From a virus: a stretch of 52,863 bases of DNA. The notes beneath the pieces were generated by a model. That model was given only the letters and a program-made list of their open reading frames with translations. It was not told the origin of the DNA and searched no databases. The stretch covers positions 1,448 to 54,310 of the IMG/VR virus record IMGVR_UViG_3300002460_002255. One strand, given 5' to 3'. The first letter of the stretch is position 1; each line of letters begins with the position of its first letter. This document shows, piece after piece, positions 1-37,582 of this stretch. The position numbers were made by a program, and so were the translations under genes.

Positions 1-822
1 AAAGACGTAACGATTATTATACCAACTATTTTAAACGGTGACCTGCCACTGGAAAAGCTAGATCGACAAAAATACGCCTTTGACCATTGTCTTGAATCTT
101 TGGATGAGACAGTTCCTGATATCCCTAAGATAATTGCTTCTAATGGGGGTAAGCCAATTAGTTACATTAACTATACCCAAATTCATAATTGGCGACAGGG
201 GCAATGTATGGCAGTGAATGCAGCCGTAGCTACTACTAATACTCCTTGGGTCTTTATTACCAACGATGACATGATTTATGCCCCTGGTTGGTGGGATCGA
301 TTAATAAGGGACATAACTCTTGATACTAAATGTATCTCACCCAAGCTCGTGGAGCCGAGGCCAGGGGCTCTTACTTTTATAGTTCAGCCCTTTGGCGGAG
401 CTGGTGGTGATTTTAATAAAGAAGGGTGGCTAGAGTTTGCTAAAAATTATAATGGTGCAGAAGTGAGAACAGGATTTAATCTACCGTTTCTTATTCGACG
501 GGAGCTGTGGGATACAATTGGTGGTTACGATATAAATTACGATCCTTGGGGTAGTAACGGGGATAGCGATCTGGAATATAAAATTAAATTGGCAGGAGTC
601 CAACCGTATCAATCTCAGAATAGCCTGGTTTATCATTTCTCCCAGACTTCAGGAACATTCTCTCCAGAAAACCAGGGCTATTGGCAAAAGAATTACGCTT
701 ATTTTATAGAGAAGTGGGGTTTTGAAAGGGTGGGCAGTCCAGAGATTTGGGAAGCTACCTTTGATATACCTGATGAAGGAAGGAAATTTAGACCAGATTG
801 GGAAGGTAAATATGCGCCTTAA
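1..822 (+). CDS. Family 2 glycosyltransferase, 5'-truncated by window edge
   Basis: The reading frame is open from base 1, so the gene starts just outside the window; the first internal ATG is at 100. The visible protein begins KDVTIIIPTILNGDL, a typical GT-A N-terminal strand. It has the acidic metal/nucleotide-sugar motif TNDDMIYAPGW near residue 95, and GGYDINYDPWG followed by SNGDSDLEYK, the region that often supplies the catalytic acid in GT2 enzymes. The likely role is transfer of a sugar from a nucleotide donor in the cytoplasm. It overlaps the next gene by 11 bases, as in a tight operon. A close paralogue sits at the other window edge (52234 onward) and shares long identical DNA stretches. 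The acceptor is unknown. Confidence 0.85.
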   Translation, partial: KDVTIIIPTILNGDLPLEKLDRQKYAFDHCLESLDETVPDIPKIIASNGGKPISYINYTQIHNWRQGQCMAVNAAVATTNTPWVFITNDDMIYAPGWWDRLIRDITLDTKCISPKLVEPRPGALTFIVQPFGGAGGDFNKEGWLEFAKNYNGAEVRTGFNLPFLIRRELWDTIGGYDINYDPWGSNGDSDLEYKIKLAGVQPYQSQNSLVYHFSQTSGTFSPENQGYWQKNYAYFIEKWGFERVGSPEIWEATFDIPDEGRKFRPDWEGKYAP

Positions 823-1780
823 TTTTATTGGTAATTACCAAAGAGGATATGTAGGCGAAGAAGCAGATGAAGTTCATCTAACTAGGGAAGTAGAAAGACT
901 GGGAAATAACGTAAATAAAGTTCCTAGGGATATTTGGAAAGCGCATGTAGATGGATTAAAGAATGATGACTGGAATAAGTATTTAGATAATCTCAAAGCT
1001 GACATTAACATCATCTGTAAATGGAATCATTTTGATGATGGAAAATACATTAAGAACCTAAGGGAAGAATCAAGTGCTCCAGTATTTTATTGGGTTTGGG
1101 ATTACATGGCCGATGGAGGAGAAGATAACTTTAATATACGGATGGCAAAGGAAGCTGATTTGTACTTATCTAACGAAGGTGGAGCCTTTAACTTTTACTC
1201 TAATCTTGGAATCAAACCCTATTACTTTCCTATGGATGTTTGCGATGGAGATTTGCCAGTCTTTGAGAATGAAGAAAAGATTTATGATGTGGTATTTCCA
1301 GGTAGCTATGTCAAGAAAGGAGATAGGATTGAGTATTTAAAAGAAATCAATAAAGAGATACCAGTAAAGATATTTGCCTGGAACCATGAGGAATGGTTGA
1401 AAGAAGGCTTTGATGCTAGCCCCGCAGTCTATGGAGCTGACTTTAATAAAATGATAGCTCAATCAAAGGTTGTACTTGGATTTAATGTTAATGCTCATTG
1501 TTGGGGATATTGGAGCAATAGGGTAGGGAAGGTACTTACTGTTGGTGGTCTATTAGTTCAACAATATGCTCCTGGGATGGAATTATTATTGCCAGATTGT
1601 GTTTCTCTATTTAGGAATCCACAAGATTTAACTACAAAAATAAAAAATATATTAGAAAAGAGTATTTATTGCCCACATAAAAAACATGAAGAGTTTACAT
1701 CAAATCAAAGATGCTACGATTTATATTTTTTGATAACTAATTATCTAAAGGAAGGAAAATTATGGAACAAACTACCATAA
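812..1780 (+). CDS. Glycosyltransferase, CgeB-like GT-B fold
   Basis: A 322-residue protein. The start is placed at ATG 812 because GGAAGG lies just upstream and the protein then begins MRLNFIGNYQRGYVGEEADE, as expected for a GT-B enzyme; the longer frame from 722 lies inside the preceding gene. The C-terminal half has the pattern NVNAHCWGYWSNRVGKVLTVGG followed by VQQYAPGMELLLPDCVSLF. This resembles the CgeB/Glyco_trans_1_2 family, where the motif binds the nucleotide sugar. It overlaps its neighbours on both sides. The sugar and acceptor cannot be told from sequence. Confidence 0.75.
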   Translation: MRLNFIGNYQRGYVGEEADEVHLTREVERLGNNVNKVPRDIWKAHVDGLKNDDWNKYLDNLKADINIICKWNHFDDGKYIKNLREESSAPVFYWVWDYMADGGEDNFNIRMAKEADLYLSNEGGAFNFYSNLGIKPYYFPMDVCDGDLPVFENEEKIYDVVFPGSYVKKGDRIEYLKEINKEIPVKIFAWNHEEWLKEGFDASPAVYGADFNKMIAQSKVVLGFNVNAHCWGYWSNRVGKVLTVGGLLVQQYAPGMELLLPDCVSLFRNPQDLTTKIKNILEKSIYCPHKKHEEFTSNQRCYDLYFLITNYLKEGKLWNKLP

Positions 1781-2793
1781 AGTTATTGCAGCCTTACGTA
1801 AATAGTAAAATGCGGCAGTCTGCAATGGAAGTTCTAAAGACAAGTTTTATTGGTCAAGGCCCAAAGGTAGATGAGTTTGAGAGGAAGTTCTCTAAAGAAT
1901 TAGGTTATAAATATGCACTTGCTGTTAATTCAGCTACTTCAGGTTTAGAGCTTGTTTATCATCTGTTGGGATTAGGTCCAGGAGATGAGGTCATCACGCC
2001 TGTATTTACTTGTACTGCTACTAATTTAGCTCTAGTTAGGAGAGGAGTAAAAGTTGTATTCGCCGATGTGAAAGAAAACCTGTTGATAGACCCAGAGGAT
2101 GCTATAAAAAAAATTACTCCTAAAACCAAAGCAATCATAAATGTTCATTTACATGGTACAAGAAGTGTGTTTCCTAAGTTGGATATTCCAGTAGTAGGAG
2201 ACGCCGCCCAATATTTAGATAGGACTCACGATGCTTATAATGTCTACTCCTTTCAAGCCACTAAGATATTTTCTACAGTTGATGGTGGGATGGTCACTTT
2301 ACCTGATGAGACTTCTTACAAGAGAGCTAAGCTACTGCGCTGGTATGGGATTGATCGGGAGACAGGAAAACCAAATATTAATGTTGATATTAAAGAAGCA
2401 GGGTATAAATACCACATGAACGATGTTACTGCTGCGATGGGAATTGCTGGATTAGGTAGTTTAGTAGCATTGTGGGGCCATCAAGTAACTTTGAATGCTC
2501 ATTATGTCGCTAATTTATGGGATACCCCTGGGATTGAATTAATGGGTGGTTATGGCCCGTTTCTAATCTCAGTTGAGAAGAGAGAGGAACTAATTGCTAA
2601 GTTGAGAAAACACGGAATTGAAGCAGGTTTAATGCACCGCCGTAATGATACTTATTCAGTCTTTGGCGGTAAAAGACAGAAGTTGCCTACTATGAATAGA
2701 ATTGAAGATAAATATTTATTCTTACCTTTACATCACGCAGTCACTGAAAAGGATGTAAAGTATATTAGTAAAGTTATAAAAGGAGGTTGGTAA
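1762..2793 (+). CDS. DegT/DnrJ/EryC1/StrS-family sugar aminotransferase
   Basis: A 343-residue PLP-dependent enzyme that normally aminates a 3- or 4-keto NDP-sugar. Family landmarks are visible: FIGQGPKVDEFERKF near the N terminus, NSATSGLELVYHLLGLGPGDEV, the cofactor-contacting GDAAQ near residue 150, and FQATKIFSTVDGG with Lys168 as the expected Schiff-base lysine. C-terminal residues include HHAVTEKDVKYI, also typical. The length is slightly below the usual 360-400. An RmlB-like dehydratase (48514-49476) could provide its keto-sugar substrate. It overlaps its upstream neighbour by 19 bases and its stop overlaps the next start as TAATG. Confidence 0.9.
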   Translation: MEQTTIKLLQPYVNSKMRQSAMEVLKTSFIGQGPKVDEFERKFSKELGYKYALAVNSATSGLELVYHLLGLGPGDEVITPVFTCTATNLALVRRGVKVVFADVKENLLIDPEDAIKKITPKTKAIINVHLHGTRSVFPKLDIPVVGDAAQYLDRTHDAYNVYSFQATKIFSTVDGGMVTLPDETSYKRAKLLRWYGIDRETGKPNINVDIKEAGYKYHMNDVTAAMGIAGLGSLVALWGHQVTLNAHYVANLWDTPGIELMGGYGPFLISVEKREELIAKLRKHGIEAGLMHRRNDTYSVFGGKRQKLPTMNRIEDKYLFLPLHHAVTEKDVKYISKVIKGGW

Positions 2794-3362
2794 TGACAGA
2801 CGAAGAAATTATTCAAGCATGTGCTCATATTCCGTCATCGGTTTATGAGCCAGAGCAAAGAATGTGGTATAGAGTACTTTCCCCTTTGCCAGACAGTCCA
2901 GTAATTGTAGATTTAGGAACAGGACATGGTAAGAGTGCTGCTTCTTTAGCCTTATCATGCCCCCAGGGTCATGTATATACCTTTGATCCAGGTGAACCTT
3001 ATATCAATGCTGGATGTAACGAAGAGCAGTATGAAGCAGAAACTAATAAGTTTATGGAGGATGCAGGAGCGAAAAATGTAAGCTTTACTCGTGATTCATC
3101 TTTGACTGTACCTTGGGATAAGGACATTGATGTTCTGAACATTGACTCAAATCATACCTATGAACATACAAGATCGGAAATATTACGCTGGATACCATTC
3201 GTGAAACAAGGTGGTCATGCTTTCTTTCATGATTATGATCATCCCCAAGCACCAGGTGTAAGGCAAGCCATTGATGAGCTAATTCCTAGTACTTTTAATA
3301 TGGAATTAGTGGAGGTAACTGATGCTGGAGCAGTCAAATGTGCTCACTTTATCAAAAGCTAG
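2793..3362 (+). CDS. Class I SAM-dependent methyltransferase, Methyltransf_24/CmcI-like
   Basis: A 189-residue protein. The start is ATG 2793, six bases after a perfect AGGAGG at 2781-2786. The SAM-binding glycine motif is VDLGTGHGKSA, with the acidic residue at the end of strand 2 in YTFDPGEPY. The segment VLNIDSNHTYEHTRSEI followed by GGHAFFHDYDHPQAPGVRQA matches the Methyltransf_24 pattern (DxxHxYE, HDY, PGVxxA), which is common in sugar and cell-surface gene clusters. It probably methylates a sugar or glycan. It sits between the aminotransferase and the epimerase in one operon. Confidence 0.82.
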   Translation: MTDEEIIQACAHIPSSVYEPEQRMWYRVLSPLPDSPVIVDLGTGHGKSAASLALSCPQGHVYTFDPGEPYINAGCNEEQYEAETNKFMEDAGAKNVSFTRDSSLTVPWDKDIDVLNIDSNHTYEHTRSEILRWIPFVKQGGHAFFHDYDHPQAPGVRQAIDELIPSTFNMELVEVTDAGAVKCAHFIKS

Positions 3363-4212
3363 TAAAGTTATAGTAACTGGAAGTGCTGGGTTTTTAGGGA
3401 AACATTTAGTCAGGCGATTAACCTTTGCCGGTTATGACGTTATCGGGTGGGATATTGTTGAAGGTAATGATGTTTGCGATCCTAATCTAAAGTCTACTGA
3501 TATTGATGCAATCTATCATCTGGCATCTCCAGTGGATCCAGGTCATTATGAAAAGATTGCGGTGGATGTTGGTAGGACTAATTTCTTAGGTACCTTAAAT
3601 ATGTTAAATCTGGCTAAGGAAAACAAGGCTAAATTTCTGTTTACTTCCTCTTCAGAGGTTTATGGTGATATGGGGAGTAGACCATTCAAGGAAACTGATG
3701 TTGGGAAAGTAGATGTATCTGATCAACGAGCTTACTACAGCGAAGCCAAACGAGCGGGAGAAATGCTAACACTTCTCTATCATAATCTTTACAGCCTAGA
3801 TGTAAGGATTGTTAGGCCGTTTAATATATACGGGCCAGGTATGAGGAAGAACGACTCTCGTGTAATTCCGTCTTTTATTAGAGAAATTCAACGGGATAAA
3901 CCAATAATTATATATGGACTTGGACAAGCTACTCGAACTTTCTGCTATGTGGATGATTTTATAGAAGGTATGATGAGGGCTATGTACTACCCAAATACAA
4001 ATGGAGAAACATTTAATTTAGGTACAACTGAAGAAATATCTATTTCTGAATTGGCACAGTTATTTGGTAATCAAATAGAGTATAAGGAGAGTAGGAAGGA
4101 TGAGCCAGCTCATCGTCGACCTAATATTTCCAAGGCCAAAAAAATATTAAAATGGGAACCTATGATTAAACTAAGGAAAGGGCTAGAACTTACATGGGCA
4201 CATTATCGGTGA
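3322..4212 (+). CDS. NAD-dependent NDP-sugar epimerase/decarboxylase (extended SDR)
   Basis: A 296-residue extended short-chain dehydrogenase. The start at ATG 3322 has GGAGG six bases upstream; it lies inside the previous gene by 41 bases. The Rossmann motif is VTGSAGFLGKHLVRRL, the Ser/Thr catalytic region is FTSSSEVYGD, and the active-site YxxxK is YYSEAK. The segment RPFNIYGPGMRKNDSRVIP and then GQATRTFCYVDDFIEGM closely resembles UDP-glucuronate decarboxylase or UDP-glucose epimerase members. It would make or interconvert a nucleotide sugar for neighbouring transferases. Exact substrate unknown. Confidence 0.85.
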   Translation: MLEQSNVLTLSKASKVIVTGSAGFLGKHLVRRLTFAGYDVIGWDIVEGNDVCDPNLKSTDIDAIYHLASPVDPGHYEKIAVDVGRTNFLGTLNMLNLAKENKAKFLFTSSSEVYGDMGSRPFKETDVGKVDVSDQRAYYSEAKRAGEMLTLLYHNLYSLDVRIVRPFNIYGPGMRKNDSRVIPSFIREIQRDKPIIIYGLGQATRTFCYVDDFIEGMMRAMYYPNTNGETFNLGTTEEISISELAQLFGNQIEYKESRKDEPAHRRPNISKAKKILKWEPMIKLRKGLELTWAHYR

Positions 4213-5132
4213 TAATAGCGACGATTAGCGATGCTATTGCTACTAATTTTACAGTGGCCCAGATTATTCAACAGTTAGAAGCGGCTAAAATTGATTATGA
4301 GATTATACTTGTAGACAATGGTAGTGATGAAACGAATAAAAAAAATCTTATGGAATTTTTAAGGTTCCACGAGGAATTTCCAATTACCTATTACGAGTAT
4401 GATGTGAAAGGGACAATACCACCTCATTCCTTTGGAGTTACTAAAGCAATTGGAAAATACATAACGATGCCTGATCCCCATCTCATACTCTCCCCTAACT
4501 ACTTCAAGGTCATGTTAAATACATTGAAAGAACTGAAGAGCAAGAACGTAGAAGTGGTCTTTTCACCATTTAGCGTTGGGAGTATGACTAAAAAAGGTGG
4601 GGATTATATATCTGGAAGTCTGTTAACCAAACCTAATCCTTTTAGTAAGCCTAGCAATATTGGTGAATCTTGTAAAATGGGCGATCCTCCTCATCCAGTC
4701 TTATCTACCTCTATGACTAGCTTTATCTGTGAAAGAGATTGGTTTCTGAAGATAGGGAATATGTTTCCTGATTCTTTTGTTGAAGCTGGTGGTCATACAG
4801 CTGAGAGCCTTTTGATAGGGATTCCAACATGGATGTTTGGGAAGAAGTGTTACGTGCAACCTAAAGTTGTGGTTGAGCACCCAGTTTATCGAACCGCCAA
4901 GGGAGCAAGTTGGAGCGCTAATATGCACCTGAGCATGGCTGTAGCTGCTTATATTCTTGGTGGACAGAAGTATTTAGATGAGATGCCTGGACAATATGGA
5001 GCCTATGTTCCTGGTGCGTTGGAGAGGATACCTGTATCTAGTATGGAGGATAGGTTACACATTGAGAAGAATGCTAAATACAGCTTGGATGAATTAGTAG
5101 ATAAATGGGAGGTATTAAGAGATGAGGCTTAA
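4194..5132 (+). CDS. Family 2 glycosyltransferase
   Basis: A 312-residue protein beginning MGTLSVIIATISDAIATNF, with the GT-A motif EIILVDNGSDETN near residue 40 and KYITMPDPHLILS near residue 90 in the place of the DxD motif. The aspartate pair is thus split (DPH), so metal binding may differ from canonical GT2 enzymes. It overlaps the epimerase upstream by 19 bases and the next gene by 11 bases, so it is almost certainly co-transcribed. Donor and acceptor are unknown. Confidence 0.75.
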   Translation: MGTLSVIIATISDAIATNFTVAQIIQQLEAAKIDYEIILVDNGSDETNKKNLMEFLRFHEEFPITYYEYDVKGTIPPHSFGVTKAIGKYITMPDPHLILSPNYFKVMLNTLKELKSKNVEVVFSPFSVGSMTKKGGDYISGSLLTKPNPFSKPSNIGESCKMGDPPHPVLSTSMTSFICERDWFLKIGNMFPDSFVEAGGHTAESLLIGIPTWMFGKKCYVQPKVVVEHPVYRTAKGASWSANMHLSMAVAAYILGGQKYLDEMPGQYGAYVPGALERIPVSSMEDRLHIEKNAKYSLDELVDKWEVLRDEA

Positions 5133-6240
5133 ACATCGCTGGAAGTGTCAGTTTTGCAAGTCTGTTGATCTAACTTTGGTTTTAGATTTGGGACCGATGC
5201 CCTTAGTGGGGGATTTCTTAAAGAAAAAGGATGTTGGTAAAGAGAAATCTTACCCTATTAGACTATGGTGTTGTGAGAACTGTGGACTTATTCAGCTTTT
5301 GGATATTACTCCTAAAGAAGAACTTTTCCAATCATTCCTAACGGGCTATTCACTCACGAAACACTTTGAGAGATTTGCTAGAGAGATGGTATATCGGTTC
5401 TTGAAGAAAGGAGATTTTGTGGTGGAGATTGGAAGTAACGACGGGACTCTTCTTAAATTCTTAAAGGATTTAGGTATGGATGTATTAGGAATAGAACCAA
5501 TTTCTTACATAGCTAAACTATCTAAAGATAAAGGTTTACCAACTATTACTAAGTTCTTTTCTTTAAAAGTAGCTAAGACGATTAAACGCCAAGCGGATGC
5601 TATCTTTGCTAATAATGTTCTAGCTCACATTGATGACATAGCTGATACTTTTAGAGGAATTAAATACTTACTAAAAGATGACGGAATCCTAGTCTTTGAG
5701 GTTCATCATGTCTACAATATCTTTGCTCAGAAGCAGTGGGATAATGTGTATCAGGAGCATCTTTACTATTATTCAGTTGCGCCATTAGCTAATCTCCTAG
5801 CTAAATATGGGTTAGAAATAACTGAAATTAAACCGATTAAGAGTCATGGCGGTTCGATTAGAGTCTATGCTAGAAAGATGCCTAAAATAGATTTACAGAA
5901 ATATGCCGAGGATCACAAAGAAAAACTGGTGAAACTTCTAAAGGATCTAAAAGCCAAGGGTAAGAAAATCATTGGCTACGGAGCGTCTGGGAGAGGGAAT
6001 GTTTTATTAAATTTCTGTGGAATAAACAGTGAAATCATAGACTATATAATAGATGAAGCTCCTACTCGCTATAATAGATATACACCTGGAACTCACATAC
6101 CAGTAGTTCCTAAAGATAAATTTGATGGAGCAGACTATATTTTGCTTTTAGCTTGGAACTACGAAAAAGAAATCAAAAAGAAAATGAAAGGATTTAAAGG
6201 GAAATATATAATACCATTTCCCGAAGTGCATATAACATGA
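5122..6240 (+). CDS. Three-domain sugar C-methyltransferase (TylC3/TcaB9-like)
   Basis: A 372-residue protein with the three-part layout of NDP-sugar C-methyltransferases. An N-terminal zinc-binding part has CQFC near residue 10 and CCENC near residue 52. A central SAM domain has VVEIGSNDGTLLKFL, then NNVLAHIDDI and FEVHHVYNIFAQKQWDNVYQEH (the HxYYYS region). A C-terminal Rossmann-like part has IIGYGASGRGNVLLNF. Known relatives put a methyl group on carbon 3 of 4-keto dideoxy sugars, making branched sugars. This suggests an uncommon branched sugar in this phage. It has tight overlaps with both neighbours. Confidence 0.9.
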   Translation: MRLKHRWKCQFCKSVDLTLVLDLGPMPLVGDFLKKKDVGKEKSYPIRLWCCENCGLIQLLDITPKEELFQSFLTGYSLTKHFERFAREMVYRFLKKGDFVVEIGSNDGTLLKFLKDLGMDVLGIEPISYIAKLSKDKGLPTITKFFSLKVAKTIKRQADAIFANNVLAHIDDIADTFRGIKYLLKDDGILVFEVHHVYNIFAQKQWDNVYQEHLYYYSVAPLANLLAKYGLEITEIKPIKSHGGSIRVYARKMPKIDLQKYAEDHKEKLVKLLKDLKAKGKKIIGYGASGRGNVLLNFCGINSEIIDYIIDEAPTRYNRYTPGTHIPVVPKDKFDGADYILLLAWNYEKEIKKKMKGFKGKYIIPFPEVHIT

Positions 6241-6911
6241 ACTTAATTATTACGCCTGTATACAAAGCTTTTGAAAGAGCTAAACAGATGGTTAGAGCCA
6301 TTGATGAAGGGGCCACGATGCCCTTTTACCACGTGATGGTAGCTGATAACTGTGGTGATATTCCCGTAGCGCATGGTAGAAATAGGGCAATTATTACTTT
6401 CAGGGATGACTATATCGAAGGAGAACATAAGAGTAAAGAAGGCCAAGCTTTGGATTTAGCCTACACTTATGGTACTCAGAAATACACTCCCTATGGCCCT
6501 AACCCGCCGATGGACTATGTATTCCTAATTGAGGAAGATGTCATGGTTCCTCAAGGTTGGGACGCTAAACAGATAGAGTTATCTAGTCATTTAAAAGAAT
6601 GGGCAACCCTAGATGTCAGTAGTGTTGATGAAGCGGGAAAACTAACTTATCCAACTGTTATCTCTCCTCGCCATGGATATGTGGAGTTCGATGGAGTCAC
6701 CTTTGAGCATCAACATTACGCCGACTTTCAATGCACTTTATTTAATCCTATTATATGGTCAGCAGGAGTGCGGTTTTCAGATTTTCCAGATCACTTTGAC
6801 ATCTTATGGTCAAATAAAGTTACTGAGTTGACGGGATTAAAGCACTACCGCACACCTGATATTAAGGCAATCCATTATGCTAGCAGTAGCAGGAACGAGC
6901 TACCAAAATGA
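6237..6911 (+). CDS. Glycosyltransferase-like GT-A protein
   Basis: A 224-residue protein starting MNLIITPVYKAFERAKQMV, which resembles the first strand and helix of GT-A glycosyltransferases. Around residue 98 it has YVFLIEEDVMVPQGWD, an acidic motif placed like the DxD of GT2 enzymes, followed by a histidine-containing region FEHQHYADFQCTLF and the closing RTPDIKAIHYAS. The N-terminal donor-binding part is short. The start overlaps the previous stop as ATGA. It is probably a transferase of the same locus, but the match is weaker than for its neighbours. Confidence 0.6.
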   Translation: MNLIITPVYKAFERAKQMVRAIDEGATMPFYHVMVADNCGDIPVAHGRNRAIITFRDDYIEGEHKSKEGQALDLAYTYGTQKYTPYGPNPPMDYVFLIEEDVMVPQGWDAKQIELSSHLKEWATLDVSSVDEAGKLTYPTVISPRHGYVEFDGVTFEHQHYADFQCTLFNPIIWSAGVRFSDFPDHFDILWSNKVTELTGLKHYRTPDIKAIHYASSSRNELPK

Positions 6912-7852
6912 AAATAGCAGCACATAGTTCAGCTGGCAGAAAATTCATGGATGATATTATTGCTCACTGGGAAGCAAAAGGACATGAAGTGTTTTATGAA
7001 CACGGAGCTAATCCTGAGCTTACTAGAACCTGTGATCTAACCTACATGGATTGGTTGGATAACAACTTCTATTGTCTATTTAACGGGCCAGGTGGGGACA
7101 ATAACGCTCCTGGTTGGAAATCATACCCTAAGAAAGGCCCAATAGCCGTTAGAGCAATCGATATTGATATCTGGATGGGTAGACATAGAGATCAGCGAAT
7201 CTGGAATTATATGGATTACATGATCGTTATTAGTCCTTTCTATCAGAGAATGATTCAAGCAGAAGGTAACCCACCTAAAGGTAAATTGCATTTAATTAGA
7301 CCGGGAGTAAATCTGGAAAAGTTTACCTTTAGGAAAAAGGATAATGAATATAAGATAGCCTTAGTAACTGGTAATATGTGGGAGGCTAAGGCAACTTATG
7401 AGGCAATTAGATTACTAGCTTTGCTCAGAAAGCAGACAAAACACGACTGGACTTTACATATCCGAGGTGATTTTATTCCTCCTGAGTGGCATAGAGCGGC
7501 CCACGATCATCTTCTTGAAGTGCTTGGGGTAAAAGATAAAGTTTCAGTTTACTCTGCGGTAGGAGAAATGAATAACTGGTACGAAGATAAAGACTACATT
7601 CTAGTAACTAGCTATAAGGAAGCATTTAGTTACGCTGCGGGTGAGGGAATGGCTAAAGGGTTAAAGCCTATTTTAAATAACTTCTTTGGGGCAGAAGAGA
7701 TTTGGTCAAAGGAATATCTTTATACTAACTGGGATGATGTAATTAAGATGTTTCAGGAATCAATCGAATCAGAGAAATATAGACAATATATAGAGAAACA
7801 TTATTCTCTGGAAAGAATGTTGAAGGCGTACGATGAGCTACTTGGTAGCTGA
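6908..7852 (+). CDS. GT-B glycosyltransferase, family 4-like
   Basis: A 314-residue protein. The N-terminal half is a short Rossmann-like domain (MKIAAHSSAGRKFMDDIIAH). The linker and C-terminal half have the GT4 pattern VISPFYQRMIQAEG, LIRPGVNLEKF, KIALVTGNMWEAK, and the donor-binding segment SYKEAFSYAAGEGMAKGLKP, which corresponds to the E-x7-E motif region. It overlaps its upstream neighbour by 4 bases and the next gene by 20. It likely adds one sugar of the glycan made by this locus. Confidence 0.78.
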   Translation: MKIAAHSSAGRKFMDDIIAHWEAKGHEVFYEHGANPELTRTCDLTYMDWLDNNFYCLFNGPGGDNNAPGWKSYPKKGPIAVRAIDIDIWMGRHRDQRIWNYMDYMIVISPFYQRMIQAEGNPPKGKLHLIRPGVNLEKFTFRKKDNEYKIALVTGNMWEAKATYEAIRLLALLRKQTKHDWTLHIRGDFIPPEWHRAAHDHLLEVLGVKDKVSVYSAVGEMNNWYEDKDYILVTSYKEAFSYAAGEGMAKGLKPILNNFFGAEEIWSKEYLYTNWDDVIKMFQESIESEKYRQYIEKHYSLERMLKAYDELLGS

Positions 7853-8315
7853 CATGGATGATGTTTATATTGACCCTGCTAACGGCATGAACTGGCTTTG
7901 GTATTTAAAGGGAAAATATCCTAACTTTAAATGTACTTTATTTGTTATTCCCGGAAAAAGTACTCTTGATTGGATATGGGAATTAGTAAATTTAGATTGG
8001 GTGGAAGTAGGAATACACGGTAATATGCACGATGAGAAGGAAGAAATAACAGAGGATATTATAAAAGGGTGGTCAATTTGGTCATCCATTTATAAAGGTC
8101 CTAACTGGAAAGTTACTAAAAAAGAAATGGATTTACTTCATGAAAAGGGCTATTCATTAGCGGTTAAGGAAGTAATTGAGCATCCAATTAAACAATGGCC
8201 TTTGACTGATCCACGAGCAGTTCATGGTCATGCTTGGATCGAGGCTGACTGGAAGAGATTAGAATCTTTAATCAAACCAAAGACAGAGTTTAAATTTATA
8301 AAGGAAGTGATATGA
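7833..8315 (+). CDS. Polysaccharide deacetylase-like (NodB-type) protein
   Basis: A 160-residue protein beginning SYLVADMDDVYIDPANG. The paired Asp at residues 8-9 and the later VEVGIHGNMHDEKEE match the metal-binding motifs of carbohydrate esterase family 4 (D-D and H-x3-H); CTLFVIPG corresponds to the strand between them. It is short and the C-terminal motifs are not clear, so it may be a minimal deacetylase or an inactive relative. In this operon a natural job would be removing an acetyl group from an N-acetyl sugar. Function is inferred from motif order only. Confidence 0.6.
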   Translation: MSYLVADMDDVYIDPANGMNWLWYLKGKYPNFKCTLFVIPGKSTLDWIWELVNLDWVEVGIHGNMHDEKEEITEDIIKGWSIWSSIYKGPNWKVTKKEMDLLHEKGYSLAVKEVIEHPIKQWPLTDPRAVHGHAWIEADWKRLESLIKPKTEFKFIKEVI

Positions 8316-9208
8316 AAGAATTAGCGATAGTTTTACCCTACATACGAGATGATTATGTGAAACGCTGTATTGAAACGTTATATAAGTACACTAACAATTT
8401 CTACCTAATCGGTGTAGACCAGACTGTGAATGGCTACTATGATAAAAGATTCCACTTATATCTACGCCCGTTTCGTAATCTTGGGTTTGCCAAAGCCGCT
8501 AATGAGGGAATAATTCACGCTAAGCGCTGGGGAATTCCCTACATAGGTGTACTTAATGACGACACAGAGTTTATGCACAAAGATTGGTGGCAAGGAGTAA
8601 AAGATGAGTTTGCCACCGATGAGAAGATACTAGCAGTCTGTCCTGAAAGCCCCCGTGTGCCTTTGTGGGGCTATGGTAGACCCCATGGAGAGTATATTGA
8701 TATAATAGAATATAAGGAAGAGTACACAGAAGAAGACTGGCAATATCTATGTGCTGGTGATTATGAAGACCTTAAAGAAAGAGTCCAAGATATTCCCGAA
8801 GCTTTCCCGCTTACAAAGAGAGGTGTTATTGATGCAATCGCTATGTGGTTCCCTATCTTTAGGAACGAGTTTTTTGACAAAGTGGGTTACTTTGACGAAA
8901 GATTTTACCCCGGTGGAGGAGAGGACTACGACCTCAATGCCAGAGGATACCGTCTGGGTTATCGTTTAGTTTCAACCATGCGAGCCTGGATATGGCATTG
9001 GTGGGGACAAAGTAAGGACAAGGCTGCTGAACTACCAAAGGAATTAAATATGTTTGATACAGAACTTAGATGGAATAATTTAGATGAACTTTGGCCAAGA
9101 GAACTTAATAATGGTCAAGGGATGGATCCCTGGGGCCATCACACAGATGTTAATGGAAAAAGGCAACCATTGAATAGGGTAGCCGAAGTTCATATAAAAG
9201 AGTTATAA
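8312..9208 (+). CDS. Family 2 glycosyltransferase
   Basis: A 298-residue protein with a clear GT-A layout: ELAIVLPYIRDDYVKRCIETL, NLGFAKAANEGI, the DxD-like VLNDDTEFMHKDWW near residue 90, and the acceptor-side FDERFYPGGGEDYDLNARG, a hallmark of rhamnosyltransferase-like GT2 enzymes. It has an insertion between the two halves (GEYIDIIEYKEEYTEEDW). It overlaps the previous gene by 4 bases and is the last sugar gene before the tail module. The ORF stop TAA overlaps the TATAAT box of the next gene. Confidence 0.85.
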   Translation: MKELAIVLPYIRDDYVKRCIETLYKYTNNFYLIGVDQTVNGYYDKRFHLYLRPFRNLGFAKAANEGIIHAKRWGIPYIGVLNDDTEFMHKDWWQGVKDEFATDEKILAVCPESPRVPLWGYGRPHGEYIDIIEYKEEYTEEDWQYLCAGDYEDLKERVQDIPEAFPLTKRGVIDAIAMWFPIFRNEFFDKVGYFDERFYPGGGEDYDLNARGYRLGYRLVSTMRAWIWHWWGQSKDKAAELPKELNMFDTELRWNNLDELWPRELNNGQGMDPWGHHTDVNGKRQPLNRVAEVHIKEL

Positions 9209-10858: not shown

Positions 10859-13800
10859 ATGGCTCGGTTACTGCGTTCCTACGGGATTATCTTAATAAGA
10901 GAATTTCCAATCACTTTGGTGGTAGGTACTACTACCTCTACAACTACCACCACTTCAACAACCACGTCCACCACCACAACTAGCTCTAGTACATCTACTA
11001 CCACATCCACCAGTACTTCTACAAGCACTACAACCACTTCTAGCTCCACTACCACATCGACTTCAACAACGACAACTTCGACTAGCTCTTCGACATCTAC
11101 GTCAACGACGACAAGCACAACTACTACGAGTACAAGTACTAGTTCATCGACAAGCACAACTACAACTAGCTCTAGTACCTCGACTACGACTTCAACATCT
11201 ACTAGCACATCTACCTCCACTACTACTACTTCAAGTTCTACGAGCACAAGTACGACAACAACATCGAGTAGTACGTCGACTACAACTACTTCAAGCTCAA
11301 CTAGTACAACAACTACCACGTCAACTAGTACTTCTTCCTCCACATCTACAACAACGACTAGTAGTTCTACCTCTACTTCTACTTCGACCACAACGACGAG
11401 TTCGAGTACAACTACAACTACAAGTTCGTCTACGTCTACCTCAACCACCACTACGTCTAGCAGTACTAGTACTTCCACAACAACGACATCAACATCTACT
11501 TCTACTACGACTAGCACATCAACTTCTACTAGCACCAGTACGTCTACGACTACGACCTCTACTTCCACGTCAACCAGTACAACAACTACGAGTTCCAGTA
11601 CTTCTACCACAAGTAGTACAAGTACCAGCACGACCACATCTACTACAACTACATCCAGTAGCACGTCAACATCGACAACAACTACGTCTAGTTCTACTTC
11701 TACGACTACAACCAGTACTAGTACTAGTAGCAGTACCACAACATCAAGCTCAACAAGCACCAGCACCAGTACAACTACAACTTCTACCTCGACTTCAACT
11801 TCTACCACTACGACTAGTTCAAGTACTTCAACAACAACTAGCAGTAGCACGTCCAGTTCAACATCAACGACTACGACCTCTAGTAGTACTTCTACTTCAA
11901 CAACGACAACGTCGAGTTCAACTTCCACAAGTACTAGTACTTCAACCACAACGAGCACTAGTACCACCACAACTTCTTCAACAACAACTACTAGCACAAC
12001 GACTACTTCTTCGAGTACTACAACTTCAACAACAACCTCGACATCGACAAGTAGTTCTACCAGTACTACCACTACCAGTAGTAGTACTAGCACTAGTACA
12101 ACCACCACATCTTCTTCGACTTCTACAAGTACGACTAGCAGTACTAGTACCAGTACTAGTACAACTACCACTTCTAGTAGTACATCGACAAGTACAACCA
12201 CAACGTCTAGCTCTACTAGTACTACTACGTCGACAAGCAGTTCTACCTCGACATCAACTACTACAACGTCAAGTAGTACCTCAACGTCTACTACTACCAC
12301 CAGTAGTAGTACTTCGACCACAACCTCAACTACTACATCAAGTTCAACTTCAACTACCACGACTAGTAGCAGCACATCGACATCAACTACTACTACCAGT
12401 ACTTCGACTAGCACTACGACTACAACTTCTACCTCGAGTTCTAGTAGTACCAGTACAACCACAACGTCGAGTTCAACTTCAAGTAGTACTACCACTACGT
12501 CTAGTAGTACTTCCACAACAACCACGAGTAGTAGTACCTCTACAAGCACTACAACAACTAGTTCATCAACGAGTACTTCGACGACTACCACAAGCTCGTC
12601 TACGTCTACCACAACGACCAGCACTAGTAGTTCTACTAGTACAACTACGACTTCGTCCAGTACTTCAACTAGTACAACTACCACCAGTTCTAGTACATCA
12701 ACCACAACGTCTACTAGTACTACAACTTCAACATCAACTACGACAACGTCCAGCTCTACATCTACTTCTACTACGATTACTAGCACCAGCACATCTACGA
12801 CAACGACGTCTTCCAGTACGACAACATCAACCACCACTACTTCTAGTTCGACTTCAACTACAACCACCAGTTCATCTACTACAACGAGTACAACTACGAC
12901 CTCGAGTAGCACGAGTACTAGTACTACAACTACCTCATCTAGCACTACTACAAGCACTACAACTAGTACTTCGACATCTAGTTCCACTAGCACCACGACA
13001 ACTAGTACTTCAACGACAACAAGTACAACTACCACTAGTAGTAGTACTTCCACCACCACAACCTCATCGTCCACAAGTACGTCAACGACTACAACTAGTT
13101 CAAGCACTTCAACTACAACTTCAACTAGTACAAGCACAACGTCATCTACCAGTACTACTACCACTAGTACAAGTACATCCAGTTCTACAACCACGACTAG
13201 TTCTTCTACTTCGACGACTACTAGTACGTCAACATCAACTAGTACCAGTACAACTACTACTAGTAGTAGTACCTCCACGACTACAACGGTGACATCCACG
13301 TCGACTTCCACTACTACAACCTCTACCAGTAGTTCTACCTCTACGACGACTACATCGTCGTCAACGTCAACAACTACAACGTCCACCTCAAGTTCTAGTA
13401 GTACCAGTACAACCACAACGTCGAGTTCGACATCGACTACCACATCAACTTCAACAAGTACAAGTACGAGTACTAGTACAACTACTACGTCGTCGTCTAC
13501 TTCCACTAGTACAACGACAACTAGTTCTTCTACCTCGACTACTACTACAAGCAGTTCTACTAGTACATCTACCACGACTACAAGTAGCAGTACTAGCACA
13601 AGTACGACATCCAGCTCGACGAGCACGAGCACGAGTACAACTACTACATCTAGTAGTACTTCGACCAGTACGACCACCACAAGTTCTTCGACTACAACCT
13701 CAACCAGTACAACTACTTCAACTAGTACATCTAGCTCAACTAGTACGACCACTACTAGCAGTTCTACTTCGACTTCTACTACAACCACTAGTACTTCGAC

Positions 13801-15679
13801 TACAAGTAGTACTTCTACATCAACGTCTACTACAACCACTAGTTCAAGCACTAGTACAACTACGAGTAGTAGTACTTCAACCACAACAACGTCTTCCTCA
13901 ACTTCCACTACTACAAGTAGTTCGACAAGTACGAGTACTACAACTACGTCGTCTAGTACTACAACAACTACCAGCTCAAGTACGTCTACTACGACCACCT
14001 CTACATCAACATCAACGACGACAACATCTAGTAGTACCTCAACAAGTACCTCAACCACGACTACTTCTACTTCAACTACAACTAGTACCTCCACCAGTAC
14101 AACTACCTCTACATCGACATCCACGACTACTACAAGTAGCTCTACTTCTACTACCACAACTAGTACGTCAACGACTACGTCAAGCTCTACGAGCACGACA
14201 ACAACATCTTCAAGTACGAGTACTACAAGTAGTACTTCAACTTCTACTTCAACAACTACAACATCAAGTAGCACAACGACTAGCTCGTCTACCAGCACTA
14301 CTACTACATCAAGTAGTACATCCACGACAACCACCAGCAGTTCCACGAGTACTACAACCAGTAGCTCAACTTCTACAACAACCACTAGTTCTTCTACTAG
14401 TAGCAGTACTACTACATCTACTTCCACAACTACGACCAGTTCTAGTACTTCTACCACTACAACAAGTTCTTCGACTAGTACTTCCAGTAGTACAAGTACT
14501 TCTACTACAACCACGTCTAGTAGTACTTCTACAACTAGTAGTACCTCAAGCTCCACAACAACAACTAGCTCTTCAACCACTACCTCAACTACAACAACTA
14601 GTTCATCTACGTCTACTACTAGTAGCACTAGTACATCCACAACTACTACTTCTAGTAGTACATCTAGTTCTACTTCCACTAGTACTACAACTACCAGTAC
14701 ATCAACTTCAACTAGTACTACCACAACCAGTTCTTCTACCAGCACGAGCACGACAACCACTTCGTCTAGTACTTCAAGTAGCACTACTACAACTAGTTCC
14801 TCGACATCTACTAGCACTACAACTACAAGTTCAAGTACCTCTACAACAACTAGTACGTCAACGTCTACGACTACAACCTCGAGCTCCACCAGTAGTACAA
14901 CTAGTACATCTACTACCACTACATCTAGTAGTACGAGCACAAGTACCACCACGACATCCACATCAACATCTACTTCCACAACTACTACGTCAACATCAAG
15001 CTCAACGACTACGAGTACTACAACCAGTTCGTCTACGACTACATCCAGCAGTACAACTACAACGTCGAGTAGTACCTCTACTAGCACTACAACTACTAGT
15101 ACTAGCTCAAGTACTAGCACTACCACAACGAGTAGTTCAACCAGTACTTCGACTACAACAACACTGACTACAACTAGTACTTCGACATCTAGTTCCACTA
15201 GCACCACGACAACCTCAAGCTCAACTAGTACAACTACTTCAAGTTCAACGACAACTACTTCTACGAGTAGTTCAACTAGCACTACGACTTCTACTTCGAC
15301 TACTACCTCTACTACAACAACGAGTAGTTCTACTTCCACCTCGACATCGACTACCACAACTAGTACTAGTTCCAGTACTTCTACCTCTACAACTAGCTCT
15401 TCCACTTCAACTTCTAGTTCCACTAGTAGTTCATCTTCTACAAGTACAACTACTACCAGTACGAGTACGTCATCAACTACTTCAACCACTACAACTTCAA
15501 CTTCGACTAGTACTTCTACTTCTACGAGTACTAGCACCACAACCACCAGCAGCTCTACTAGCACGAGTACTTCTAGCTCTACTTCCACAAGCTCAAGTAG
15601 TTCTACAAGTACTACAACTACAGTTCCCTACCCAATAAATGTAGAAAGGAGCGACTTAGTGATAGGCGTTACGGTATAA
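10859..15679 (+). CDS. Giant Ser/Thr-only repeat protein, mucin-like fibre candidate
   Basis: A 1606-residue protein. Residues 1-23 are a short head (MARLLRSYGIILIREFPIT). Residues 24-1588 are Ser and Thr only, with just three exceptions that I can see (one Ile, one Val, one Leu). The last 18 residues, VPYPINVERSDLVIGVTV, resemble the tails of the proteins at 15687 and 17309. The tract is built from variants of TTTTSSSTS and TTTTSSSTSTS. It has no charge, no Lys/Arg and no predicted fold; such tracts are extended and are natural targets for O-glycosylation. The neighbours are fibre genes and a large glycosyltransferase locus. All ten Ser and Thr codons are used in mixed order. No enzymatic role is visible; the glycosylation idea is inference. 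Confidence 0.85.
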   Translation: MARLLRSYGIILIREFPITLVVGTTTSTTTTTSTTTSTTTTSSSTSTTTSTSTSTSTTTTSSSTTTSTSTTTTSTSSSTSTSTTTSTTTTSTSTSSSTSTTTTSSSTSTTTSTSTSTSTSTTTTSSSTSTSTTTTSSSTSTTTTSSSTSTTTTTSTSTSSSTSTTTTSSSTSTSTSTTTTSSSTTTTTSSSTSTSTTTTSSSTSTSTTTTSTSTSTTTSTSTSTSTSTSTTTTSTSTSTSTTTTSSSTSTTSSTSTSTTTSTTTTSSSTSTSTTTTSSSTSTTTTSTSTSSSTTTSSSTSTSTSTTTTSTSTSTSTTTTSSSTSTTTSSSTSSSTSTTTTSSSTSTSTTTTSSSTSTSTSTSTTTSTSTTTTSSTTTTSTTTTSSSTTTSTTTSTSTSSSTSTTTTSSSTSTSTTTTSSSTSTSTTSSTSTSTSTTTTSSSTSTSTTTTSSSTSTTTSTSSSTSTSTTTTSSSTSTSTTTTSSSTSTTTSTTTSSSTSTTTTSSSTSTSTTTTSTSTSTTTTTSTSSSSSTSTTTTSSSTSSSTTTTSSSTSTTTTSSSTSTSTTTTSSSTSTSTTTTSSSTSTTTTSTSSSTSTTTTSSSTSTSTTTTSSSTSTTTSTSTTTSTSTTTTSSSTSTSTTITSTSTSTTTTSSSTTTSTTTTSSSTSTTTTSSSTTTSTTTTSSSTSTSTTTTSSSTTTSTTTSTSTSSSTSTTTTSTSTTTSTTTTSSSTSTTTTSSSTSTSTTTTSSSTSTTTSTSTSTTSSTSTTTTSTSTSSSTTTTSSSTSTTTSTSTSTSTSTTTTSSSTSTTTTVTSTSTSTTTTSTSSSTSTTTTSSSTSTTTTSTSSSSSTSTTTTSSSTSTTTSTSTSTSTSTSTTTTSSSTSTSTTTTSSSTSTTTTSSSTSTSTTTTSSSTSTSTTSSSTSTSTSTTTTSSSTSTSTTTTSSSTTTSTSTTTSTSTSSSTSTTTTSSSTSTSTTTTSTSTTSSTSTSTSTTTTSSSTSTTTSSSTSTTTTSSSTSTTTSSSTSTSTTTTSSSTTTTTSSSTSTTTTSTSTSTTTTSSSTSTSTSTTTTSTSTTTSTSTSTTTSTSTSTTTTSSSTSTTTTSTSTTTSSSTSTTTTSSSTSTTSSTSTSTSTTTTSSSTTTSSSTSTTTTSSSTSTTTTSSSTSTTTSSSTSTTTTSSSTSSSTTTSTSTTTTSSSTSTTTTSSSTSTSSSTSTSTTTTSSSTSTTSSTSSSTTTTSSSTTTSTTTTSSSTSTTSSTSTSTTTTSSSTSSSTSTSTTTTSTSTSTSTTTTSSSTSTSTTTTSSSTSSSTTTTSSSTSTSTTTTSSSTSTTTSTSTSTTTTSSSTSSTTSTSTTTTSSSTSTSTTTTSTSTSTSTTTTSTSSSTTTSTTTSSSTTTSSSTTTTSSSTSTSTTTTSTSSSTSTTTTSSSTSTSTTTTLTTTSTSTSSSTSTTTTSSSTSTTTSSSTTTTSTSSSTSTTTSTSTTTSTTTTSSSTSTSTSTTTTSTSSSTSTSTTSSSTSTSSSTSSSSSTSTTTTSTSTSSTTSTTTTSTSTSTSTSTSTSTTTTSSSTSTSTSSSTSTSSSSSTSTTTTVPYPINVERSDLVIGVTV
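10928..15622 (+). repeat. 4.7-kb low-complexity Ser/Thr codon tract
   Basis: DNA coding residues 24-1588 of the preceding gene. It is made of ACN, TCN and AGY codons with synonymous bases varied nearly at random, so the protein is periodic but the DNA mostly is not. Two long exact DNA repeats stand out: 12956-13002 equals 15167-15213 (47 bases), and 12437-12474 equals 13391-13428 (38 bases). Confidence 0.9.
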
Positions 15680-15686: not shown

Positions 15687-17294
15687 ATGGCACGTCTTTG
15701 GTCTAGTGGGTTTGAATTAAATAGTTTAACTACGGATGTTGAAGTGACAGGTATTGGAGGTTCGCCAACTATAAGCACTACAACAGTACGAAGTGGTGCT
15801 TATGCTTTGAAATCAGCCCCAACATCTTCTGTTCAAGCAGTATTTTATGATTTTAAGTCTAGTGCTACTGCTGATGGCTTCTATATAAGGGCATACTTTA
15901 GAATAGCCACTCTACCAGGAGTCAAGACAGAGATCATTAAATTAAGAGGAACTGGTGACAAGGCAAGAATAGACTTAAATTCAGATGGTACATTAGAACT
16001 GTGGAATGCTGAAGATAACGCCCAGGTAGGTTTAGATAGCTCTGTGCTAAATACCAACCAATGGTACAGAATAGAGCTAAAACTTGATTGCACCACATTG
16101 TCTAGTACTTCCATCGAAGGAAAAATAGATGGAACCAGTTTTGCCTCTGGCACAATTAACCTTGCTAGTGGTGTTTCACGAGCTAACTTTGGAATCATAG
16201 ATACTGCAGTTACTGCCGAGCTATATGTTGACGACATAGCCATCAATGACGACTCAGGCTCCTTCCAAAACTCTTGGCCTGGAGAAGGGGAGATAATTCA
16301 TTTAAGACCGAGTGCTACAGGGGACAACTCAGACTGGACTGGTACTAATACAGATATAGATGAAGTAACCCCAGACGATGCCACTACTCTAATTTCTTCC
16401 AACACTAATGAACAAATAGAAGATGTGAATATAGATGATACCCCTGCTGCTTTGGCTTCAGACGACACCATAAACTGTGTTCAATTGGGAACTAGATTTA
16501 ATGGAGTAGGAGCCTCTGCCAATGCCTCCTTCGTTACAAGAATAAAAAAGGCATCGGCTGGTACGGTTTCGGAAAGCTCTGTAATTACTCCAAGTAACAC
16601 TACTTGGGATACTAATGCGGATGCTGCACCTAGAAATTATGCTTTAACTTTATATCAAGATCCAGACAGTAGTAATTGGACTAAAGCTACTCTTGATACC
16701 TCCCAGATAGGGGTGAGACTGTCCTCTGCTTCTACTAATGCAGCCCAAGTTTCAACTCTTTGGCTTTTGGTAGACCACCAACCTGCTGCTGGAACTACTA
16801 CATCAACTACTACAACTACCTCTACCTCAACCTCCACGTCTACGACTACAACCAGCTCTTCTACCTCTACAACAACAACATCTAGTTCTACTAGTACCAC
16901 AACTAGTACAACGACTACTAGTACATCTACTACAACTTCCACAAGTACTACTACCTCATCATCAACTTCAAGTACAACAACGACTAGTACTACCACAACT
17001 TCTACTTCCACAACGACTACTACATCCACCAGTACTACTACATCTTTGAGTACCACGACGTCGACTAGCACAAGTACCAGTAGCAGCACGACTACTTCCA
17101 CTAGTACTACTTCCACATCTACCAGCACCACTACATCCCTAAGTACTACTACTTCAACAAGTACGAGTACTAGTTCATCTACTACAACTACACTAGGTTA
17201 TTCCATCGATGTAGTTCCTGGCTATGATCTAGGTGTGAATGTAGAAGAAGAGGAAGAAGGACTAATGGAGTTTGATGTTAGAGATGAGAAATAG
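15687..17294 (+). CDS. Lectin-like (LamG/ConA-fold) fibre protein with Ser/Thr stalk
   Basis: A 535-residue protein. Residues about 1-190 look like a concanavalin-A-like jelly roll: WSSGFELNS, SGAYALKS, FYIRAYFRIATLP, GTLELWNAED, NQWYRIELKLD, and the closing ELYVDDIAIND. Residues about 200-365 form a second beta domain (ending VSTLWLLVDHQPAAG). A Ser/Thr stalk follows at 16794-17192. The end is LGYSIDVVPGYDLGVNVEEEEEG and a short acidic tail. It probably forms part of a tail fibre that binds or displays glycans. Within the stalk a 25-residue unit occurs twice with scrambled codons (17022-17096 and 17115-17189). Confidence 0.72.
   Translation: MARLWSSGFELNSLTTDVEVTGIGGSPTISTTTVRSGAYALKSAPTSSVQAVFYDFKSSATADGFYIRAYFRIATLPGVKTEIIKLRGTGDKARIDLNSDGTLELWNAEDNAQVGLDSSVLNTNQWYRIELKLDCTTLSSTSIEGKIDGTSFASGTINLASGVSRANFGIIDTAVTAELYVDDIAINDDSGSFQNSWPGEGEIIHLRPSATGDNSDWTGTNTDIDEVTPDDATTLISSNTNEQIEDVNIDDTPAALASDDTINCVQLGTRFNGVGASANASFVTRIKKASAGTVSESSVITPSNTTWDTNADAAPRNYALTLYQDPDSSNWTKATLDTSQIGVRLSSASTNAAQVSTLWLLVDHQPAAGTTTSTTTTTSTSTSTSTTTTSSSTSTTTTSSSTSTTTSTTTTSTSTTTSTSTTTSSSTSSTTTTSTTTTSTSTTTTTSTSTTTSLSTTTSTSTSTSSSTTTSTSTTSTSTSTTTSLSTTTSTSTSTSSSTTTTLGYSIDVVPGYDLGVNVEEEEEGLMEFDVRDEK
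17022..17189 (+). repeat. Two identical 25-residue units in different codons
   Basis: Units at 17022-17096 and 17115-17189 encode the same 25 residues (TSTSTTTSLSTTTSTSTSTS plus SSTTT), separated by six residues. By my codon-by-codon comparison 17 of 25 codons differ, all synonymously. Leu changes from TTG to CTA, and two serines switch between AGC and TCN. Confidence 0.9.
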
Positions 17295-17308: not shown

Positions 17309-18622
17309 ATGCCAGATAAAATATTCTTCCAGAAATATCAGAAGGCTCTTGTTTGGCTATTCAAAACAAGAATCGGTAAATGGTTCTTTAAGATTGAGCC
17401 TAAAGGTGAAATTGTTGCTGTCTTCCCTAATGCTATTCGTTGGATAAACCCTAATGGCTCTTACTCAACCGAATTTAGAACCAACAATAGATATGCTTAT
17501 AGATTAAATACTCTACTTAAATACTTCCCATTCTTAATGTGGGAAAGAGAATATCAATGGTATCCTCAACTGCGTCTTGGTTTAACAGTAAGTACTTTTT
17601 ATCCTGATCCTGATGTTGAAAGTACAAGTGTAGATGGCTTGACCGAGGCTGATTATGCTAATGGTAGTGGTAAAAGCTGGGCTAATCTTATAGCTGATGC
17701 TGGAACTGCAAGTTATCCTTCTCTGGTAGGAGATGAAGTAGCTGATACTGCAATGGGTTTCACTACTGACTCTGCTACTACAGATTTTTTCCGTACATTA
17801 AGAAGATCTATTTATCTTTTCGATACTGCTTCAATACCTGACACGGACACAATTGATTCAGCCACACTATCTTTATGGGGTCGAGCTAAGACAGATGGGT
17901 TGAGCGCTACCCCTGATATAAATATTTACTCTTCAGCCCCTGCTTCAAATACAGATTTAGTTGCAGGAGATTTTGACAGCTTAGGATCAACTGCTTTTGC
18001 AACTGCGATTAGTTACGCTAGCTGGGTAGGAGATGACTCTGCTTACAATGTTTTTACTTTAAATGCAAGTGGGTTAACTAATATATCTAAAACTGCCACA
18101 CCGACTAAGTTTGGAGCCAGAAATGCTAACTACGATGTTTCAGGAACCACGCCACCTTGGTCTAATGTAGCTAACACACGAAGTACTTTGGGTACTTGGT
18201 ATGCAGAAAAGACAGGTACAGCTAACGATCCTAAATTAGAAGTTACTCACACTACTCCGACTACCACGTCAACTACAACTACTACTTCAACCAGTACAAC
18301 GACTACCTCTACTTCTACGTCAACCTCCACCTCAACTAGTACCACAACCACATCTACGTCCTCGTCTACTTCGACAACTACAAGCACCTCTACCACTACA
18401 ACTTCTACATCCACTAGTACGAGTACTACAACTACTACTTCCACTTCGACTAGTACCACTACCACAAGTACTAGCACAACGACTACTACGTCCACGTCTA
18501 CATCGTCGTCCACTACTACTACATCCACAAGCACAACCACCACTTCCACAACGACGACTTGGAAATATCCTATTGATGTTGAACTAGGTTATGACCTTGT
18601 ACTAGAGAACAAGTTAGGTTAA
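17309..18622 (+). CDS. DNRLRE-like fibre protein with C-terminal Ser/Thr stalk
   Basis: A 437-residue protein. Residues 1-95 are basic and aromatic (KALVWLFKTRIGKWFFKIEP, WEREYQWYPQLRLG) and may anchor it. Residues about 95-310 look like a DNRLRE-type beta domain: RRSIYLFDTASIPDTDTIDS, ATLSLWGRAK, FTLNASGLTNISKTA, GTANDPKLEVTH. A Ser/Thr stalk follows at 18260-18559, then the tail WKYPIDVELGYDLVLENKLG, similar to the ends of the two preceding stalk proteins. The role is probably a tail fibre or surface adhesin subunit. Confidence 0.68.
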   Translation: MPDKIFFQKYQKALVWLFKTRIGKWFFKIEPKGEIVAVFPNAIRWINPNGSYSTEFRTNNRYAYRLNTLLKYFPFLMWEREYQWYPQLRLGLTVSTFYPDPDVESTSVDGLTEADYANGSGKSWANLIADAGTASYPSLVGDEVADTAMGFTTDSATTDFFRTLRRSIYLFDTASIPDTDTIDSATLSLWGRAKTDGLSATPDINIYSSAPASNTDLVAGDFDSLGSTAFATAISYASWVGDDSAYNVFTLNASGLTNISKTATPTKFGARNANYDVSGTTPPWSNVANTRSTLGTWYAEKTGTANDPKLEVTHTTPTTTSTTTTTSTSTTTTSTSTSTSTSTSTTTTSTSSSTSTTTSTSTTTTSTSTSTSTTTTTSTSTSTTTTSTSTTTTTSTSTSSSTTTTSTSTTTTSTTTTWKYPIDVELGYDLVLENKLG

Positions 18623-37102: not shown

Positions 37103-37582
37103 ATGAAGGAAAAAAAGATTGAAGAGGTTTCTGAAGAAATTGATGCCATGGGTCAAGAAAGTGAAATAAAAGCGTCTCATTGGGTTAAAGAAAAAGGAAA
37201 AGAATGGGATCAGGAGACAGAACAAGAACAGGGAAAGACCTTAGAGATCTTAAAGGGAAGAACCAAGTATAAATTTGCAGACTACAAACGCTTTTTGGGA
37301 AAAGAATTGATGAGGAGAGGGTGGGAGGAAGGTTATCCTAAAGATTGGATGTTCCAAAGTGTAGTTACTGACAATGGGATAGTGTATTATCTTCGTTCCC
37401 CTGACAAAAGACTGTTCGTAAGGGCTTTTACTCCAGTTAATATTCCCAAGTATGATCTGGTTGCTATTGATAAAATCATAGAGTCCTCCTGGGTAGCAAT
37501 CGAAAAATGGGAAAAGGAAGACAAACGTGATATAATTTTACCTAGTGGAAGCGCAAAACATTTACCGAACCCAAATAATTGA
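37103..37582 (+). CDS. Hypothetical protein upstream of the large terminase
   Basis: A 159-residue protein. Residues 1-50 are a highly charged helix (KKIEEVSEEIDAMGQESEIK, KEWDQETEQEQGKTLEILKG). Residues 55-140 look like a small alpha/beta domain (MRRGWEEGYPKDWMFQSVVT, GIVYYLRSPDKRLFVRAFTP). It overlaps the large terminase start by 38 bases. It could help packaging, but no family is recognised. Confidence 0.6.
   Translation: MKEKKIEEVSEEIDAMGQESEIKASHWVKEKGKEWDQETEQEQGKTLEILKGRTKYKFADYKRFLGKELMRRGWEEGYPKDWMFQSVVTDNGIVYYLRSPDKRLFVRAFTPVNIPKYDLVAIDKIIESSWVAIEKWEKEDKRDIILPSGSAKHLPNPNN
37528..37544 (+). promoter_or_regulatory. Extended -10 box before the large terminase start
   Basis: TGATATAAT at 37528-37536, eight bases, GTG 37545. 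No good -35 box is visible, but the TG extension can compensate. Confidence 0.4.

Follow-up and report, generated by a model that had tools for sequence, protein, structure and literature searches.

How does a phage come to encode the same 25 residues twice in close succession, in the same order but with mostly different codons? The question is raised by a tail-type gene on a 63.6 kb contig of an uncultured virus, of which we analysed bases 1448-54310 (52,863 nucleotides, hereafter the window); the contig carries phage terminase, portal and major head genes. The gene holds one of seven Ser/Thr tracts (T1-T7, together about 2,000 codons), and the proteins bearing them are encoded beside head and tail genes. 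In window coordinates the features concerned are:

10859..15679, plus strand: giant protein of 1606 aa, of which T1 (10928-15622) makes up 1565 aa, all Ser/Thr save for three single interruptions
15687..17294, plus strand: tail-type protein of 535 residues, made up of an N-terminal domain of 367 aa, tract T2 and a short C-terminal module
16794..17192, plus strand: tract T2, 133 aa
17022..17096, plus strand: first 25-residue unit in T2
17115..17189, plus strand: second 25-residue unit in T2
17309..18622, plus strand: protein of 437 aa with tract T3 (18260-18559), 100 aa
20864..21901, plus strand: protein of 345 aa with T4 (21044-21247), 68 aa, as an internal tract
37545..39050, plus strand: terminase large subunit
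43653..44570, plus strand: major head protein/protease, the query for finding relatives
44695..45042, plus strand: small anchor domain and T5 (44848-45036), 63 aa, directly 3' of the major head protein
45052..45324, plus strand: small anchor domain and T6 (45202-45318), 39 aa
45327..45599, plus strand: small anchor domain and T7 (45471-45593), 41 aa

The earlier note on this DNA had described the two T2 units as one peptide written in scrambled codons, and the recount bears this out: both read TSTSTTTSLSTTTSTSTSTSSSTTT, with 25 of 25 residues equal and 17 of 25 codons different, the Leu being TTG in one and CTA in the other, and two serines being AGC in one and TCA/TCT in the other. Two random synonymous versions of this peptide would be expected to differ at 18.5 +/- 2.2 codons. 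At the DNA level the pair agrees at 53 of 75 bases, where such random versions would agree at 47.9 +/- 4.1, so that residual homology is not clearly visible. Because the codon difference equals the random synonymous level, the T2 pair is one example of a tract-wide state. All ten Ser/Thr codons are indeed in use across the seven tracts, ACG and TCG among them, and the long maximal residue matches within these tracts (309 of at least 20 residues, 78 of at least 25, the longest of 40) have a mean codon identity of 0.26, the level of random codon choice. The two T2 copies are probably true duplicates, since the context of their Leu is rare (identical 8+16 contexts in 2e-4 of position pairs, and in 4e-3 among TTTSxS sites) and L154, a relative, also has the TTTSLSTTTSTSTSTS unit, there with TTA for the Leu. 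In T1, the segments at 12416 and 13370 form a 22-residue match with 68% of codons identical, the sole long match with high codon identity and probably a more recent copy inside that tract.

The residue order itself follows a strict grammar. Of 560 Ser runs, 549 have an odd length; Thr runs comprise 1, 3, 4 or 5 residues, rarely 2; and 123 of the 129 distances from one TTTT start to the next are odd. The grammar is thus parity-like: odd-length blocks of S and of T take turns, with TTTT between them. Could a two-letter alphabet simply yield long matches by chance? T1 alone has 72 matches of at least 25 residues; residue models of order 0-2 yield about none, and we reject chance on this ground. 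An order-6 model gives 81 +/- 24, and since it reproduces the count where the lower orders do not, the long matches stem from the strict local grammar. Codons are much alike at all run positions, with the AGY and TCN boxes and all third bases mixed at each of them; the rule therefore acts on residues, and a nucleotide-level constraint is rejected. ACN codons are one base away from TCN and from AGY alike, and a nucleotide rule would hardly produce such an order. We likewise reject gene conversion as its main source, as shared k-mers are without clear excess. On the minus strand, an open frame of 1569 codons (10879-15588) lies antisense to T1, an automatic result, because Ser/Thr codons in that register give no opposite-strand stop. 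Cellular Ser/Thr tracts from our pattern scan were mostly Thr runs, and literature searches of partial coverage returned no description of tracts such as these.

Relatives found via the head gene allow the selection on this order to be judged. The T6 orthologue keeps a constant length of 39 residues in eight phages and the T7 orthologue is 41 residues long, one T7 starting with Val; in one pair of phages (L135/L136) all 39 T6 residues are identical and 28 of the 39 codons differ. Ser/Thr swaps between orthologues numbered 4, 2 and 5, against 21, 28 and 12 expected neutrally at the observed synonymous divergence, so the equal swap rates that would have spoken for mere drift of the residues are not seen. 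A two-parameter likelihood fit gave omega 0.27-0.36 in the closer pairs and was uninformative in distant ones, and the pooled likelihood-ratio against neutrality (p 5e-4) is, under its site-homogeneous model, a rejection of moderate force only. As a two-letter alphabet inflates identity, we took random windows of the same Ser/Thr dialect for comparison: T7 tract identity is 0.85, against 0.51 for such windows and 0.44 for the protein's own anchor domain. The earlier note had held that the exact order is preserved. It is kept far beyond neutral expectation, but not exactly, with 0-9 swaps per 39-41 residues between orthologous tracts, clustered at certain positions. The Ser/Thr order is therefore under strong protein-level constraint, and synonymous positions have drifted near saturation. 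Equal peptides carry random codons because residue order is constrained while synonymous sites drift close to saturation; as such drift by itself gives this randomness, there is no need to invoke a process that erases repeats or a mutator.

The grammar also differs from one phage to another. Among 37 genomes, the dialect distance between tracts of different genes was 0.258 within a genome and 0.406 between genomes (label-shuffle null 0.404, sd 0.016), a contrast that relatedness inflates; setting T5 beside T7 of its own genome, and beside its orthologues in other genomes, gave a result in the same direction. TTTT blocks mark the window, six-Thr blocks L017 and long Ser runs L144-L147, and dialects differ even among phages with homologous anchors. 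In the relative L148, both tracts (7252-7488 and 7858-7992) have Ile, Val or Leu at alternating positions (SIS, SVS, SLS), a hint of beta-strand. The grammar is thus genome-specific and common to non-homologous tracts of one genome, and an order common to non-homologous proteins points to a trans-acting reader, for example a glycosyltransferase. The glycan genes of the window are:

1..9208, plus strand: glycan cluster copy A, whose start lies upstream of the window, with GT2, GT1/GT4-type, DegT aminotransferase, methyltransferase and epimerase genes
46415..47743, plus strand: GT-B (GT4-type) glycosyltransferase, candidate tract-modifying enzyme, in synteny with T5-T7 in the tract lineage
47750..52863, plus strand: glycan genes (GT2, epimerase/dehydratases, nucleotidyltransferase), continuing into cluster copy B past the window end

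The tract genome thus has both glycosyltransferase (GT2, GT4-type) and sugar-nucleotide genes. The cluster (GT2, GT4-type, epimerase, DegT aminotransferase, methyltransferase) occurs twice on the contig, at window 1-9208 and from beyond 52234 to about 62066, with gene order kept and sequence diverged. The GT-B gene lies about 0.8 kb after T7, and its score for Glycos_transf_1 falls just short of the Pfam threshold (E 6.4e-6; 26.3 bits against a cut-off of 26.4); Pfam gave no match in the tract proteins themselves. A profile scan with the GT-B found a mixed Ser/Thr tract at 61 of 80 loci, as compared with 1 of 80 control loci of an unrelated phage GT2. Only 4 of 22 GT4 loci without a window-type head or portal gene had a tract, so this link lies mostly within one phage lineage, and the GT4-type marker had no match among 50,697 records of cultured phages. 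For GT2, in 50 viral contigs, a non-random sample made up of relatives and of hits from scanning DNA for a Ser/Thr pattern, the gene was present in 16 of 19 with strong tracts and in 6 of 31 others, and outside the window's clade in 9 of 11 against 5 of 30 (p 2e-4). Two relatives with a tract-free T2 anchor, L002 and L006, were without GT2 or epimerase.

The anchor of T2, the N-terminal 367 aa of its protein, is homologous (35%) to minor tail proteins of the Streptomyces phages Galactica and Hiyaa, and the homologue in L002 stops close to the T2 tract start, for which reason the T2 tract and tail look like an added module. The AlphaFold2 (AF2) model of the anchor is of low confidence and matches many concanavalin-like lectin folds, a result that identifies a widespread fold but no function. 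An HNH homing endonuclease with a NUMOD3 motif (18632-19342) sits between two of the tract-bearing tail genes.

Taken with the constraint on residue order, these observations make us favour, with some reserve, protein-level selection on Ser/Thr order and synonymous drift near saturation, in virion-type fibres to which the phage probably attaches O-glycans. Each phage has its own Ser/Thr pattern in all its tails, next to a large set of sugar-attaching genes, which makes their glycosylation probable; this modification, its use and the placing of the tracts on the virion we infer. The T2 repeats, lying within the Ser/Thr fibres of such proteins, would be copies of old date or else segments that conform to the grammar. 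The tracts would form extended, beta-like polymers on head and tail, to be O-glycosylated by phage glycosyltransferases of the adjacent cluster, and the S/T pattern may place rigid (Thr) against flexible (Ser) sites, or modified against unmodified ones. The resulting coat would shield the virion or mediate surface contact. DNA or the glycans of the host could instead be the target of the glycosyltransferase cluster.

Such a target elsewhere is part of the alternative that the pattern is purely structural, with small and beta-branched residues arranged for a beta-sheet or beta-helix fibre and the glycan genes serving another purpose. The parity rule would suit it, as would the interruptions: single ones number 78 per 14,208 residues, 73% of them are I/V/L/M as against about 23% under one-step mutation, and neither Pro nor Asn is ever seen among them, so that an extended or beta-like chain is favoured. 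The AF2 model of the T7 protein also has strands in the tract, but they are weak (pLDDT 56-80), and its comparison with the PDB gave no match with E below 2. A fixed fold would moreover not require dialects that vary despite homologous anchors, and the GT2 association outside the clade and the GT4 synteny speak against it; we regard a structural role without glycans as rather unlikely.

A second alternative, which was that of the earlier note, is that selection on the DNA scrambles codons so as to avoid recombination or slippage between long identical repeats. There is something in this at very short range: adjacent identical codons number 193 where 234 are expected (z -3.3), short repeats (6-8 bases, lying within 30 bases of each other) show a similar mild deficit (z about -3), the mean lag-1 z over 58 viral tracts is -0.76, and adjacent serines tend to switch between the AGY and TCN boxes in several phages. 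In the tracts of L144, L145 and L151, neighbouring serines mostly alternate between these boxes and identical adjacent codons are nearly absent. However, the depletion vanishes beyond about 20 codons and does not extend to longer repeats, one long exact repeat persisting in T1. Tested against a random synonymous model, codon order is otherwise random: given the residues, repeated 6-12-mers equal the synonymous shuffle, and in the corresponding test global 6-15-mers were at or above the null, with only very local depletion. Nor is removal of DNA repeats general, since clear ones are retained in 45% of tracts of other phages of this kind; for the same reason the tracts probably grow by duplication, after which DNA identity drifts away. 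With synonymous drift alone already yielding the randomness, it is improbable that codon scrambling of this sort explains the repeats, and the slight local avoidance of codon repeats leaves DNA-level selection a minor role. tRNA supply was also rejected as an explanation, there being no tRNA genes in the window.

The earlier note's third suggestion, a diversification process, is not needed here. In its favour is L132/L134, where tract synonymous difference is 28% against about 6% in the flanks (up to about 5 times), but the genes of this pair are patchy (0/113 to 11/105), so that exchange of an older allele is a more likely cause than hypermutation. In two clean pairs, the difference at synonymous sites is about 1.5-2 times larger in the tracts than in the flanks, the figure for fourfold sites being about 1.5 before saturation correction. 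Near-identical phages show no targeted excess at all: L145/L146 have 0/393 changes in tracts against 63/7075 outside, and the contig L131, which shares 5,402 bases with the window (99.96%), has 0/429, so that T5-T7, the tracts seen in this second assembly (T2 is present in one assembly), are no assembly error. With no clear surplus of shared k-mers apart from a single long copy, diversification by a mutator, retroelement or gene conversion is very improbable, and hypermutation or diversity generation is rejected.

How do these tracts compare with known systems? Capsid and tail-tube subunits of mycobacteriophages carry glycans at their C-termini (Freeman 2023, cited in PMC12619734), and the C-terminal position on head and tail proteins and the phage-encoded glycosyltransferases recall the situation here. 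As far as PMC12619734 relates it, that system has no long Ser/Thr tracts of two letters whose grammar varies with the genome, and for our phage glycosylation is presumed. Mucin-like O-glycosylated domains and linkers share the dense Ser/Thr, low complexity and extended chain, O-glycosylation being probable in the present case. Unlike them, the tracts contain almost no Pro or other residues, obey a strict odd-run order, reach 1565 residues and conserve that order while their codons are saturated. Prokaryotic polysaccharide-binding proteins (PMC6821194) have Ser/Thr tracts fused to sugar-binding-type domains, as here, but the longest phage low-complexity region of that survey is 115 aa, and a grammar of this sort is not known from it. 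Glycans linked through Thr have less conformational freedom than those linked through Ser (PMC9950641).

To go further, we would tentatively entertain that a two-letter Ser/Thr code proper to each lineage, and common to all tracts of its genome, co-evolves with a tract-dedicated glycosyltransferase, the residue order programming the glycan pattern or the stiffness of the coat. Tract order that is better conserved than the neighbouring folded domain, in codons near saturation, means that selection discriminates Ser from Thr position by position, and these tracts are thus a testable system for how the choice of Ser versus Thr may encode glycosylation or fibre structure.
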